Below, in pieces: positions 27,006 to 51,398 of a DNA stretch of 64,000 nucleotides. Source of the stretch: Aquabacterium soli. GTDB taxonomy: Bacteria; Pseudomonadota; Gammaproteobacteria; Burkholderiales; Burkholderiaceae_C. The first letter of the stretch is position 1; each line of letters starts with the position of its first letter. The stretch spans positions 186,001-250,000 of the forward strand of contig NZ_RSED01000004.1 in assembly GCF_003933735.1 (NCBI RefSeq), read 5' to 3'. The notes under the pieces are model-generated. The model ran no database searches, was not told the DNA's origin, and saw nothing but the letters and a program-made list of their open reading frames with translations. The translations under genes and the position numbers were made by a program.

Positions 27006-27393
27006 GCGTCTTGTCGTGGCAGCGCGGGGCGGGGCCGAGCCGGCATCCGTCCGGGCTTCAATGTTGGCGGTCCCACCTTCGGAGTGACTGCTCTCCGCGT
27101 GCTCGTCCAGGGCAGGTGGCTGCGCAACTCGGCCCTTCGGGCCTCAAACATGCTCGCCATCCCCTGGCCTGCGGCCAGGGGCAGACCTGCCCCTCCCTGC
27201 GCGCCTCCGACGCCAACAAGGCGCCCGGCCGGATACCGGCTCAGCCCTTTGGGCCCCGCTGTCCTCATGCGAAGGGTGTTGTCCTTTGCCAGCGCGGGCT
27301 GACGTATCGGCACGTGCCCTCTACGCACGCCACCAGCGGGGCGAAGAAGGGATGCCCACACATCCCGCGCCCCGCGCTGCCACGACAAAACGC
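27006..27393. repeat. structured intergenic repeat, copy A
   Basis: This non-coding stretch of about 390 bp is bounded by a 26-bp terminal inverted repeat with one mismatch (27006-27031 and 27368-27393; core TTGTCGTGGCAGCGCGGGG). The inner core (about 27092-27205) aligns with the copies at 49.6 and 50.0 kb. It holds GGTGGCTGCGCAACTC, hairpin GGCCC-TTC-GGGCC, CTCGCCATCCCCTG, and hairpin CCCCTGGCC-TGC-GGCCAGGGG. It sits between the efflux operon terminator and a convergent gene. Short frames here are not credible genes. Confidence 0.75.
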
Positions 27394-40328: not shown

Positions 40329-42419
40329 ATGAACAACGATCACGACAACATCGACAACACCACGCCGGCGCCCGACGCTGCGCCCGTCATCGACGAGCAC
40401 ACCGCATCGCAGCTCGACGCCCTGAGCCGCCGCCTGGAAGCTGAAGCCCGTGCCGATGCCGCCTTCGACGGCGACGACCAGCTGGACGACGAAGAAGCAG
40501 CGCCCGCAGTCATTGATGACGGCGGCGCCCGCTTCGCCGACCTGGGCCTGAGCCCCATGCTGGTCCAGGCCCTGACCGACTCCGGCTACACCAGCCCCAC
40601 CGACGTGCAAGTGCGCGCCATCCCGGCCGCCCTGGAAGGCAAGGACCTGCGCGTCGCCTCCAACACCGGCAGCGGCAAGACCGCCGCTTTCATGTTGCCC
40701 GCCCTGGAGCGCATCGTCGCTGCCCGTGGCGACAGCAACCGCCGCGAAAAGGGCAAGGTGCATGGTCCCCGCGTGCTGGTGCTGGCCCCGACCCGTGAGC
40801 TGGCCCTGCAAGTGGCCAAGGCTGCATCCACCTATGGCCGCCACATGCAAGGCCTGCGCGTGGCCACCGTGGTGGGCGGCGTGCCTTACGGCTACCAGCT
40901 CAAGGCCCTGCGCGGCCCGCTGGATGTGCTGATCGCCACCCCCGGCCGCCTGCTGGACCACCTCAACAGCGGCGCTGCCGTGCTGAGCAACCTTGAAACG
41001 CTGGTGCTCGACGAAGCCGACCGCATGCTGGACATGGGCTTCATCGAAGACATCGAGACCATCGCCCAGCACACCCCCGAGAACCGCCAGACGCTGATGT
41101 TCAGCGCCACCTTCGCGGGCCACGTGGGCAAGCTGGCCGAGCGCCTGACGCGCAACGCGCTGAACATCGAAGTGGCATCGCACACCGACAGCCACGACAA
41201 CATCGAGCAGCGCCTGCACCTGGCCGACACGCTGGCCCACAAGAACGACCTGCTGGACCACCTGCTGACCACGAAGGAAGTGGACCAGGCCGTGGTGTTC
41301 ACCAGCACCCAGCGCGACGCCGACATCCTGGCCGACCGCCTGGCCGACATGGGCCACGCCGTGGCCGCGCTGCACGGCGGCATGCCGCAAGGCCGCCGCA
41401 ACCGCGTGCTGCAAGGTCTGCGCATGGGCGAGCTGCGCGTGCTGGTGGCCACCGACGTGGCCGCCCGCGGCATCGACGTGCCCACGATCACCCACGTGAT
41501 CAACTACGGCATGCCCATGAAGCCGGAAGACTACGTTCACCGCATCGGCCGCACGGGCCGTGCCGGTCGCAGTGGCCTGGCCGTGACGCTGGCCGAGCGC
41601 CGCGACATCCCGATGGTGCGCCGCATCGAGCGCTTCACCACGCAACGCATCCCTGAAGCCGTGATCGCGGGCCTGGAGCCCAAGACCAAGATGCAGGCCG
41701 ATCATCGCGGCGCGCCCCCGCGCGGCGGCAAGAAGCCCATGCCCGGTCAACGCCACCGCGATGACCGCGGCTTCGGCGGCGCTCCGCGCGGCGGCTATGG
41801 TGACCGTGGCGGCTTCGGCGGCGGCAACGACCGTGGTTTCCAGGACCGCGGTGAGCGCGGCTTCCAGGACCGTGGCGACCGCGGTGGTTTCGGTGGCGGC
41901 CCGCGTGCCGGTGGTTTCGGCAAGCCCGACCACCATGACCCACGCTTCCGCCCCGGCGAAGGTGGTGATCGTCCGCAAGGCGAGCGCTCCTTTGGTGACC
42001 GTCCTTTCGGCGACCGCCCGCAGCGTGACAACCGCGAAGCCCGTCCGTTCGGCGACAAGCCCTTCGGTGACCGCAAGCCCTTCGGCGACAAGCCGTTTGG
42101 CGGCAAGCCGGCAGGTGCCGGCAAGCCCTACGCCGGCAAGTCCTTCAGCGGCGACCGCAAGCCCTTCGGCGACAAGCCGTTTGGCGGCAAGCCGGCAGGT
42201 GCCGGCAAGCCCTACGCCGGCAAGTCCTTCAGCGGCGACCGCAAGCCCTTCGGCGACAAGCCGTTTGGCGGCAAGCCGGCAGGTGCCGGCAAGCCCTACG
42301 CCGGCAAGTCCTTCAGCGGCGACCGCAAGCCCTTCGGCGACAAGCCCGGCTTCAAGTCGGGTGGCCCGAAGCCCGGCTTCGGCGGCAAGCGCCCCGGCTT
42401 CGGCAAGCGCGAAGGCTGA
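40329..42419 (+). CDS. DEAD-box ATP-dependent RNA helicase with Gly-rich repeat tail
   Basis: The 696-aa helicase has an acidic N-terminus (about 1-65), the RecA-like core and a long basic tail. Motifs: Q-motif region FADLGLSPMLVQALTDSGYT, motif I SNTGSGKT, Ia APTRELALQ, II DEAD in VLDEADRMLDMGF, III SAT, and VI HRIGRTGRAGR. It resembles RhlE-type helicases that remodel structured RNA in ribosome assembly and cold adaptation. The tail (about 460-696) is rich in Gly, Arg, Phe and Lys-Pro-Phe-Gly, and includes three perfect 28-residue repeats (DNA 42075-42326). The ATG at 40329 was preferred over the longer frame. Confidence 0.93.
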   Translation: MNNDHDNIDNTTPAPDAAPVIDEHTASQLDALSRRLEAEARADAAFDGDDQLDDEEAAPAVIDDGGARFADLGLSPMLVQALTDSGYTSPTDVQVRAIPAALEGKDLRVASNTGSGKTAAFMLPALERIVAARGDSNRREKGKVHGPRVLVLAPTRELALQVAKAASTYGRHMQGLRVATVVGGVPYGYQLKALRGPLDVLIATPGRLLDHLNSGAAVLSNLETLVLDEADRMLDMGFIEDIETIAQHTPENRQTLMFSATFAGHVGKLAERLTRNALNIEVASHTDSHDNIEQRLHLADTLAHKNDLLDHLLTTKEVDQAVVFTSTQRDADILADRLADMGHAVAALHGGMPQGRRNRVLQGLRMGELRVLVATDVAARGIDVPTITHVINYGMPMKPEDYVHRIGRTGRAGRSGLAVTLAERRDIPMVRRIERFTTQRIPEAVIAGLEPKTKMQADHRGAPPRGGKKPMPGQRHRDDRGFGGAPRGGYGDRGGFGGGNDRGFQDRGERGFQDRGDRGGFGGGPRAGGFGKPDHHDPRFRPGEGGDRPQGERSFGDRPFGDRPQRDNREARPFGDKPFGDRKPFGDKPFGGKPAGAGKPYAGKSFSGDRKPFGDKPFGGKPAGAGKPYAGKSFSGDRKPFGDKPFGGKPAGAGKPYAGKSFSGDRKPFGDKPGFKSGGPKPGFGGKRPGFGKREG
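42075..42326 (+). repeat. three perfect 84-bp tandem repeats inside the helicase gene
   Basis: Copies at 42075-42158, 42159-42242 and 42243-42326 are identical at DNA level, and a fourth begins for 18 bases. Each adds 28 residues starting KPFGDKPFGGKPAGAGKPYA. Frame is preserved, so copy number can change without breaking the protein. Confidence 0.95.
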
Positions 42420-49431: not shown

Positions 49432-49466
49432 AAAAACCGCCCTGGCGTTTGCCTTGGCGGTTTTTT
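49432..49466. terminator. terminator after rpmG
   Basis: AAAAACCGCC and GGCGGTTTTTT form the stem, with an inner GGC/GCC pairing. A/T tracts on both sides make it potentially bidirectional. Confidence 0.9.
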
Positions 49467-49516: not shown

Positions 49517-49741
49517 GGCGAAGGGTGAGCGGGGCGGCGGGGGCGGTTCACAGGGGCGGTCTGACCTTTGGTCAGACTCCCTTGCGGTGCTCGGTCGGGT
49601 CAGGTGGCTGCGGAACTCGGGCCTTGCAGGCCCTCAGACAGTCCTCGCCATCCCCTGTCCTTCGGCAGGGGCAACCTGCCCCGCCCTGCGCTCCTCAGCG
49701 CCCCTGAGGCCCTTCCCCGCCCGCCCCGCACACCCTTCGCC
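49517..49741. repeat. structured intergenic repeat, copy B
   Basis: The element is closed by a 21-bp terminal inverted repeat with one mismatch (49517-49537 and 49721-49741; GGCGAAGGGTGAGCGGGGCGG). Inside are hairpins GTCTGACC-TTT-GGTCAGAC, GGGCCT-TGC-AGGCCC, and CCCCTG with CAGGGG, and the core GGTGGCTGCGGAACTC and CTCGCCATCCCCTG shared with copies A and C. No coding potential is credible. Confidence 0.75.
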
Positions 49742-49868
49742 CGACAAACCGCGGCACGCCACTCGGGTGGTGTGTTGGCACGGTTTGATCGCACGACTCC
49801 ATCACCGTACTGGCACGGCTGATGCTCGGTGATGGCATGCCACGGCCTTCGCATGCCGCCACACCGGA

Positions 49869-50084
49869 GGGGCGAGGCGGTGCTGGGCAGGGCGACTGGG
49901 TGGCGTCGAGGAGCGCAGGTTCGGGCAGGTTGCCCCTGGCCTTTGGCCAGGGGATGGCGAGGATGTCTGAGGGCCCAAGGGGCCCGAGTTCCGCAGCCAC
50001 CTGCCCGAACCGAGCACCGCAGAGCAGTCCTGCGCTTGCGCAGGACCGACACCCTTGGAGCCCTGCCCAGCGCCGCCTCGCCCC
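49869..50084. repeat. structured intergenic repeat, copy C (inverted relative to B)
   Basis: It is closed by a 25-bp terminal inverted repeat (49869-49893 and 50060-50084), differing at one position that would be a U-G wobble. Read on the minus strand it shows hairpins TCCTGCGC-AAG-CGCAGGA, GGGCCC-CTT-GGGCCC, and CCCCTGGCC-AAA-GGCCAGGGG with the same core as A and B. It lies between rpmG and the convergent desaturase gene, 127 bases from copy B. Confidence 0.75.
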
Positions 50085-50112
50085 GAAGCCCCCACCAGGC
50101 ATGCCCGAATAC

Positions 50113-50143
50113 AAAAAAGCCCCGCTCAAAAAAGCGAGGCTCT
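50113..50143 (-). terminator. terminator of the desaturase gene
   Basis: On the minus strand AGCCTCGCT pairs with AGCGGGGCT (one G-T) and is followed by TTTTTTG. Confidence 0.85.
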
Positions 50144-50171: not shown

Positions 50172-51398
50172 TCAGGCATGCGCCGCACGCAGCTTCAGAG
50201 AGAACTCCTGCAGCGCCTTGATCCCGCTGCCCTCGGCCCGCTGGCACCAGCCCTGAAGATCAGCGACCAGCTGCTCTCCCGACACATTCGTGCGGGTCCA
50301 CACCAGCCGCAGCTCTTCACGCATGGTCAACAGCTTGTCCAGGCTGGGATGCTCGGCCCGCGCCTTCTCGATGTCCACGCGCAGCGAATGAGGCACCTTC
50401 TCGACATCACGGTGCATCCAGTGACGCACCTTCTGCAGCTTGGCAGCCGCCGACTGCTGGCCGCTGGACTTCAGGCGCGACAGCTCGGCCGCGCAGGCGG
50501 CACGCACCTCACGGGCATACGAGGCCATCAGCTCATAGCGGTGGGCGGCCAGGGCCTCCAGCGTCTTGGCATCGGCCACAGGTTTGATCTCGCCCAGCGT
50601 CAGGCGCGGCGGCACCTTGCGGACCTTGGCCAGGCCCACCATCTCCAGGCCACGGATGTAGGTCCAGCCGATGTCGAACTCATACGACTTGACGGACAGC
50701 TTGGCCGAGGTCGGGTAGGTGTGGTGGTTGTTGTGCAGCTCTTCACCACCGATCAGGATGCCCCAGGGGCTGATGTTGGTGGAGGCATCGGCTGCCTCGA
50801 AGTTGCGGTAACCCCACCAGTGGCCCAGGCCGTTGATGATGCCGGCGGCGGTGATCGGGATCCACAGCATCTGCACGGCCCAAACGGTGATGCCGATGGC
50901 GCCGAACAGGGCGATGTCGATCAGGAGCATCAGGAGCACGCCCTTGGCCGAGAAGCGCGTGTAGATGTTGCGCTCAAGCCAGTCGTTGGGGGTGTTGTGG
51001 CCGTACTTGGCCAAGGTTTCTTTCTTGGCAGCCTCAACGGCATACAACTCGCGACCTTGCAGCAGCACGGTCTTGATGCCATGGGCCACGGGGCTGTGAG
51101 GGTCTTCCTCGGTCTCGCACTTGGCGTGGTGCTTGCGGTGCACGGCCACCCATTCCTTGGTCACCGTGGCCGTGGTCAACCACAGCCAGAACCGGAAGAA
51201 ATGCGAGGCGATGGGGTGCAGGTCCAGCGAGCGGTGAGCCTGGCTGCGGTGCAGGAAAATCGTCACCGACGCGATGGTGATGTGCGTCAGCACCAGGGTG
51301 TAGAGCACCACCTGCCACCAGGCAGCGTCCAGCAACCCGTCGGACAGCCAGCTGACCATGGAATCCAGCAGAGCCGACGACGACAGCAAATCAAGCAT
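50172..51398 (-). CDS. fatty acid (delta-9 type) desaturase
   Basis: The 408-aa membrane diiron desaturase introduces double bonds into acyl chains. The three histidine boxes are HRSQAH, HRKHH and HNNHH, at about residues 50, 88 and 220. Hydrophobic segments flank them (VVLYTLVLTHITIASVTIFL, LLMLLIDIALFGAIGITVWA). A C-terminal extension of about 130 residues is helical and charged, longer than in minimal desaturases. It is a single gene with its own terminator. Confidence 0.9.
   Translation of the reverse strand: MLDLLSSSALLDSMVSWLSDGLLDAAWWQVVLYTLVLTHITIASVTIFLHRSQAHRSLDLHPIASHFFRFWLWLTTATVTKEWVAVHRKHHAKCETEEDPHSPVAHGIKTVLLQGRELYAVEAAKKETLAKYGHNTPNDWLERNIYTRFSAKGVLLMLLIDIALFGAIGITVWAVQMLWIPITAAGIINGLGHWWGYRNFEAADASTNISPWGILIGGEELHNNHHTYPTSAKLSVKSYEFDIGWTYIRGLEMVGLAKVRKVPPRLTLGEIKPVADAKTLEALAAHRYELMASYAREVRAACAAELSRLKSSGQQSAAAKLQKVRHWMHRDVEKVPHSLRVDIEKARAEHPSLDKLLTMREELRLVWTRTNVSGEQLVADLQGWCQRAEGSGIKALQEFSLKLRAAHA

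Follow-up and report, generated by a model that had tools for sequence, protein, structure and literature searches.

The attC sites of integrons keep conserved extrahelical bases while the sequence of their stems is free but self-complementary, and genomes with REP/BIME repeats typically contain a RAYT (Y1_Tnp) gene flanked by the repeat. REPs are described as intergenic palindromes of 20–40 bp, often arranged as inverted dimers; they lie mostly downstream of genes and where ORFs converge or run in one direction, and most of the families described carry GTAG or CGTC at an end (PMC3733652). The same source records that GT pairing is often observed in GTAG repeats, that REP sub-families have alternative complementary stem residues, and that REPs have been suggested to act as RNA. 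Template switching makes multi-base compensatory changes that keep stems paired, and is described for RNA genes (PMC8794818). Here we analyze a repeat family of Aquabacterium soli, starting from three copies in one stretch of 64,000 nucleotides (contig NZ_RSED01000004.1, positions 186,001 to 250,000), called the window throughout.

Two inverted units between convergent genes

Units B and C form an inverted tail-to-tail pair between two convergent genes of the window, and copy A is a third unit. From its translation, we take the left gene to be rpmG, for a ribosomal protein L33-like protein. The conserved core was searched with R1, a covariance model built from 29 copies. In the following list, the two terminator-like hairpins and the spacer were called by reading the sequence.

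27006..27030, plus strand: outer end motif, GCGCTTTGTCGTGGCAGCGCGGGGC-like, left of unit A (2 mismatches, 0 expected)
27055..27223, plus strand: conserved core of unit A (R1 match, 163.5 bits)
27369..27393, minus strand: outer end motif, inverted, right of the apparently deleted second unit of the copy-A pair (1 mismatch)
49432..49465, plus strand: left-gene hairpin, intrinsic-terminator-like (inverted repeat I7 with a T run)
49517–49741: unit B, whole
49517..49543, plus strand: unit B, 5′ arm of outer stem P1 (I3, 27 nt, 89% complementary to 49715–49741)
49544..49711, plus strand: unit B, conserved branched core, P2 to P7 (R1 match, 142.9 bits)
49619..49633, plus strand: unit B, apical hairpin P6, GGGCC...GGCCC, between the conserved AACTC and TCAGACA
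49715..49741, plus strand: unit B, 3′ arm of P1
49742..49868: spacer between the tail-to-tail units, with GGCATGCC palindromes
49869–50084: unit C, whole, inverted
49869..49893, minus strand: unit C, 3′ arm of P1 in element orientation (I5, 25 nt, 96% complementary to 50060–50084)
49893..50061, minus strand: unit C, conserved branched core (R1 match, 167.9 bits; ortholog in the close relative G022)
50060..50084, minus strand: unit C, 5′ arm of P1 in element orientation
50112..50141, minus strand: right-gene hairpin, intrinsic-terminator-like
50172–51398, minus strand: right gene, fatty-acid desaturase (PF00487)

The initial annotation of the window had described B and C as each closed by an inverted repeat of its own, as differing in their internal hairpins, and as sharing a core with copy A. 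The arms bear this out (27 nt at 89% for B, 25 nt at 96% for C), a sequence check found the internal hairpins as first described, and R1 matched the window strongly at three places (167.9, 163.5, and 142.9 bits), the fourth match reaching only 15.7 bits. The initial annotation did not mention that C is inverted relative to B, which shows as a 66-nt inverted-repeat match between 49575–49640 and 49964–50029. This region of the window is G+C-rich; as single-stranded DNA, B and C fold better than 200 of 200 dinucleotide shuffles (z of −5.76 and −8.20).

Each unit of ~210 nt is predicted to form a branched hairpin. It comprises the stems P1 (outer), P2 (inner), and P4, the side hairpin P3, and an apical junction of P5, P6, and P7. 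Within this junction, AACTC and TCA(A/G)ACA stay unpaired and hardly vary. P1 is the copy-specific stem outside the core. Three kinds of apex stand on one base, all with AACTC...TCA(A/G)ACA, and A, B, and C are of type 1. Two units are often arranged tail to tail, and a conserved outer end motif is present at most host loci (20 of 24, absent at the other 4), where conservation reaches ~40 nt beyond AGCGCGGGGC and no further. The motif occurs on both sides of copy A (2 found, 0 expected), and to the right of this copy the outer end alone remains of what looks like a second unit. At the B–C pair, the consensus outer end was not found with up to 3 mismatches.

Two further observations concern the window. 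The C-terminal part of the desaturase (50172–51398, minus strand) scores above the Pfam cut-off for DDE_Tnp_ISL3 (27.3 bits vs 23), a match that is probably spurious, and positions 42065–42346 hold a period-84 tandem repeat of three copies that are 99% alike.

Copies in the host, the genus, and other phyla

A DNA search of the host genome with B returned 19 matches, several of them partial or self-matches. The initial annotation had proposed a covariance model and a search of related genomes, and had named the lack of any further copies as contrary to its claim; many were found. R1 matched the host genome 42 times at E up to 1 (40 of these at E ≤ 0.01) and G022, the closest relative found, 19 times. 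Throughout the genus Aquabacterium, 26 of 42 genomes (host included) were matched at E up to 0.01, as many as 43 times in a single genome, in a search whose strict filters may have missed weak ones. Between the host (G000) and G022, unit content differs by type, truncation, or absence at six loci where both flanks are shared, and the B unit is absent from G022. By eye, the rpmG–desaturase locus of the relatives at L055, L060, L061, and L064 showed a gap of 176–253 nt and no element. At two host loci, L167 and L184, partial unit duplications adjoin single N letters and look like assembly artefacts.

Of inverted pairs no more than 600 bp apart, the host has 15 and G022 has 5. All 20 are convergent and none is divergent; one same-direction pair (C28) adjoins an N. 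By crude, GC3-based gene calls, the element lies between convergent genes at 20 of the 24 scored host loci (the exceptions being L168, L176, L179, and L180) and at 7 of the 11 scored in G022, with L190 (E 0.002), L198, L199, and L204 (G022) left out of the scoring. As background, 9 of the 46 adjacent gene pairs in the window are convergent; the neighbors of copy A count as tandem in this background scoring and as convergent in the locus scoring.

A strict pattern for the apex, searched in a collection of 84,980 species genomes, was found in 61 stretches, 20 from Aquabacterium and 41 from elsewhere. The latter comprise 16 stretches from Omnitrophota, 9 from Moraxellaceae (one MAG), 4 from Elusimicrobia, 3 from Saccharibacteria, and single ones from Auribacterota, Aminicenantes, Nitrospira, Atopobiaceae, Thiobacillus, Dechloromonas, Rhodocyclaceae, and two further bacteria; most come from MAGs, and contamination may explain some of these placements. 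A shorter pattern occurred 1–18 times in each of twelve genomes, where the reversed control occurred in 0 of 12, with 18 copies in a Nitrospira genome and 13 in a Moraxellaceae genome. Close convergent pairs were also present in L214, L226 (two), L244, and L254. By eye, the composites in L254, L214, L236, and L226 are framed by an extra palindrome of the CTTTCTTTTG...CAAAAGAAAG type, often followed by an AAAGAAA-like run. In a Saccharibacteria MAG (L230:5250–5800), the apical motif apparently lies, again by eye, inside a recJ-like reading frame, which may reflect an insertion in frame or coincidence.

A RAYT/Y1 transposase was considered as the mobilizer and set aside. A search for PF01797 (Y1_Tnp) with E up to 0.001 found nothing in the host (G000) or in G022, the genomes G015 and G017, which carry the element as well, had no match either, and 30 Y1 loci of relatives gave three regular-expression hits (L097, L102, and L108, of which L102 and L108 share motif letters) that we judged by eye to be chance. 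The strict apical pattern was not found in viral_contigs, one unit tried against phages had no match, and three units tried against plasmids had no element-length match, with one 48-base fragment in a Comamonas plasmid. Rfam at gathering scores gave no match for the window or for 10 loci of other taxa, and permissive Rfam searches gave sub-threshold matches only. No description of the element was found in the open-licence PMC literature, where the match of one sequence string in a lily paper was taken as chance.

An autonomous copy, with an ORF between its units, was sought in three loci (L241, L256, and L226), and none was recognized. In an Aquabacterium MAG (L241:2790–4031), a gene for an IS110-family transposase (PF02371, PF01548) lies between two element motifs 1.8 kb apart. 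IS110/IS1111 elements insert into REPs, and this gene may be an insertion into the repeat, possibly into its spacer palindromes. In a Moraxellaceae MAG (L256:1364–2785), the gene of a DUF2971 protein lies between two convergent motifs 1.9 kb apart, and it may be cargo or chance; in L226, ORFs occupy the stretch that separates two pairs. Among partial empty sites, no target-site duplication was established.

Covariation and the manner of stem change

The initial annotation had seen changes on both sides of each stem, with pairing retained, and had taken them as the signature of selection on folding. Such changes recur in many more copies. When 29 copies were aligned with MAFFT and no structure (A2, our independent count), 91.9% of the cells paired, vs 80.5% in shuffles, and double changes occurred in 25 of 53 pairs, amounting to 156 cells vs 46 when shuffled and 13–25 with slid partners. 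When 64 distinct copies were fitted to the model (A3), pairing was 91.8%, with double changes in 31 of 53 pairs and 411 double-change cells vs 135 shuffled, counts that lean towards the structure to which the copies were aligned. All these cell counts follow copies, not events, and are inflated by sub-family ancestry.

For P1, the outer stem, 61 units were taken from 66 matches. Those left out were L270, which is a duplicate, one type-2 unit of L167, two matches close to contig ends (L276 and L293), and L291, whose arms repeat those of another row. Own arms paired at a mean of −50.7 kcal/mol, vs −36.3 kcal/mol with the arms of other copies, and their sum of −3090.7 was reached by 0 of 10,000 permutations (the best being −2427.7); the own arm was the best in its row for 21 of the 61 units and among the best three for 35. 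The arms do not drift independently, the outcome that the initial annotation had named as contrary to its claim. In 38 out-of-genus copies, self-pairing of the flanking stem was −37.8 vs −28.2 with others, and again 0 of 10,000 permutations reached the observed sum, though the own arm was best in only 5 of 38 rows. P6 in the out-of-genus copies was 74% complementary within a copy vs 50% across copies.

As controls for a selected RNA, we used RNase P in two sets of 29 sequences, one from the genus (identity 0.93) and one from the class (identity 0.73). Each set represents 29 of 30 loci with DNA, one search having given 42 matches in 40 genomes and the other matches in 32. The pair metrics of this comparison cover pairs with a paired fraction of 70% or more, which in the element are 46 of 53. 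Across four identity bins (0.7–0.8, 0.8–0.88, 0.88–0.94, and 0.94–0.995), the ratio of double to single changes was 12.0, 14.5, 1.8, and 0.85 for the element. In like bins, RNase P gave 2.5 and 1.4 (class set) and 0.69 and 0.37 (genus set), and the genus set gave 1.14 in the 0.8–0.88 bin (5 sequence pairs).

Wobble pairs also set the two apart. In the element, G.U made up 1.5% of the standard pairs once a constant column was set aside and 3.7% when it was counted, vs 8.6–9.9% in RNase P. The ratio of G.U to A.C was 41:32 in the element core, the constant U.G column aside, vs 213:10 in the class and 277:5 in the genus RNase P; with poorly paired positions and the constant column counted as well, the full 53 core pairs gave 106 G.U and 117 A.C. 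Flips or transversions beyond the reach of a single G.U intermediate accounted for 245 of 354 double-change cells in the element and for 149 of 403 in class RNase P. Counted as pair types, the element had 9 G.U and 39 Watson-Crick doubles, and genus RNase P 22 and 26. The arms of P1 differ by type, with A.C at 57 and G.U at 11 in type 1 and at 6 and 8 in type 2; in other phyla the counts were 23 and 13. The type-1 arms (57:11) hinted that an asymmetry of wobbles might reveal an RNA strand, but neither the type-2 arms nor other phyla support this.

This covariation looks unlike that of an RNA under ordinary selection on one strand. The near equality of G.U and A.C in the core, together with double changes far above single ones, speaks against RNA selection on the modelled strand. 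Copying between arms in DNA, or a need to fold on both strands, accounts for this pattern better than stepwise compensation within one RNA. Selection acts too, however, since the paired columns of C change less than the unpaired ones. The C ortholog in G022 differs in 23 columns, of which 17 fall among the 70 unpaired and 6 among the 166 paired ones, and the paired differences are exactly three double changes, including one from G-C to T-A, with no single change; the paired part of unit C is thus conserved as well as compensated. Of the earlier claim of selection on folding, the covariation is confirmed, and its structured-RNA sense is weakened by the balance of G.U and A.C and by the excess of double changes.

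Readings of the element and its relation to known systems

The explanation we prefer, and would place about evenly between right and wrong, is a BIME-like family of DNA hairpins in which the arms serve as templates for each other and selection preserves them. B and C would be two units of one composite repeat, in a chromosomal intergenic palindromic family comparable to REP/BIME dimers with much larger units. Pairing would be kept mainly by the copying of one arm onto the other in DNA, through template switching at a hairpin or cruciform, and selection would remove broken hairpins. The scarce and balanced core mismatches, the flips, and the paired double changes fit template-switch arm copying plus selection for intact hairpins. 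The constancy of the junction suggests that a protein reads it; this could be the site at which a putative trans-acting protein recognizes the element and spreads or maintains it. As for the location between gene ends, insertion there may be harmless, or the element may usefully block convergent read-through. Against this explanation, no mobilizing protein was found, the consensus outer end was not found at B–C, and the strand skew of the type-1 P1 arms (A.C 57, G.U 11) is unpredicted by a symmetry at the DNA level. The initial annotation had offered a structured RNA or a single-strand hairpin element; the former is weakened, and the latter may hold.

A specific form of this explanation, overlapping with it, is that the element is a folded ssDNA substrate of a dedicated hairpin recombinase, attC- or REP/RAYT-like, and spreads horizontally between phyla. 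The conserved bases of the apical junction beside stems of free sequence are consistent with such an enzyme, as are the apex motif in 41 stretches outside the genus and the 18 Nitrospira and 13 Moraxellaceae copies found with a pattern whose reverse is in 0 of 12 genomes. We regard it as possible but doubtful, with no enzyme found, no PF01797 match in the host, no pattern in viral_contigs, and no element-length match in plasmids (three units) or match in phages (one unit).

RNA folding on two strands is the main rival to arm copying in DNA. The units would form a bidirectional device, a two-way terminator or 3′-end insulator that folds transcripts running past the end of either convergent gene. 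Selection on both transcripts would remove G.U on one strand, which is A.C on the other, and leave mainly Watson-Crick double changes. The scarcity and near equality of G.U and A.C in the core agree with this, as do the 20 of 24 host loci between convergent genes and the invariably convergent orientation of paired units; REPs, the closest known kind, share the location and are suggested to act as RNA (PMC3733652). At the window locus, however, both genes already have terminator-like hairpins outside the element, no U run was noticed at the unit ends, and 245 of 354 double-change cells are beyond a single G.U intermediate (149 of 403 in class RNase P). On balance, we find the device rather unlikely.

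A strand-specific structured RNA, perhaps on the strand opposite to the model and with protein-bound internal loops, is still less probable. It would account for the conserved unpaired AACTC and TCA(A/G)ACA with the other junction letters, and for the type-1 P1 arms, in which A.C at 57 vs G.U at 11 amounts to a wobble excess on the opposite strand. Unlike RNase P, though, the element shows no wobble excess in the core (41:32), the type-2 arms, or other phyla; Rfam has no match at gathering scores, and 15 host loci hold units in opposite orientations. Chance, or G+C-rich palindromes without common origin, can practically be dismissed despite the G+C-rich region, as the shuffle and permutation controls are all exceeded, the outer-end motif was found twice with 0 expected, and the reversed pattern is in 0 of 12 genomes.

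We tentatively raise the wider idea of an undescribed, cross-phylum class of mobile or maintained DNA hairpins, in which a putative protein would read the apical junction and arm copying would keep the stems paired. The apical motif, for which Rfam searches gave no match, occurs in Proteobacteria, Omnitrophota, Elusimicrobia, Saccharibacteria, and others. Although covariation is widely accepted as proving a functional RNA structure, this family, if the idea is true, would pass standard covariation tests without being RNA. The element is a natural test case for telling DNA arm copying from two-strand selection.

Among known systems, REP/BIME repeats share most with the element, which is likewise intergenic, forms inverted dimers, and favors the 3′ ends of genes (20 of 20 close pairs convergent); as in REP sub-families, its stems differ between copies yet stay complementary. 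It departs from them in its branched units of ~210 nt, where REPs measure 20–40 bp, in its tags (GTAG or CTAC in 2 of 61 arm pairs, CGTC/GACG in 13 of 61), in a host without a Y1 transposase match, and in the scarcity of G.U, in contrast to the GT pairing often observed in GTAG repeats. The element resembles MITEs in that it is short, dispersed, and without an evident gene, has inverted outer ends at most host loci (not found at B–C), and is present or absent between close relatives; unlike a MITE, it consists of two self-folding units with unit-specific arms, and no transposase with matching ends was found. With the attC sites of integrons, the element shares conserved unpaired bases and free yet self-complementary stems, but it stands single or paired between genes, without cassette arrays, and has a conserved center and variable ends. 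Finally, its multi-base compensatory changes are like those of template-switch (quasipalindrome) hairpins, which are described for RNA genes and which we infer here for a bacterial repeat family.
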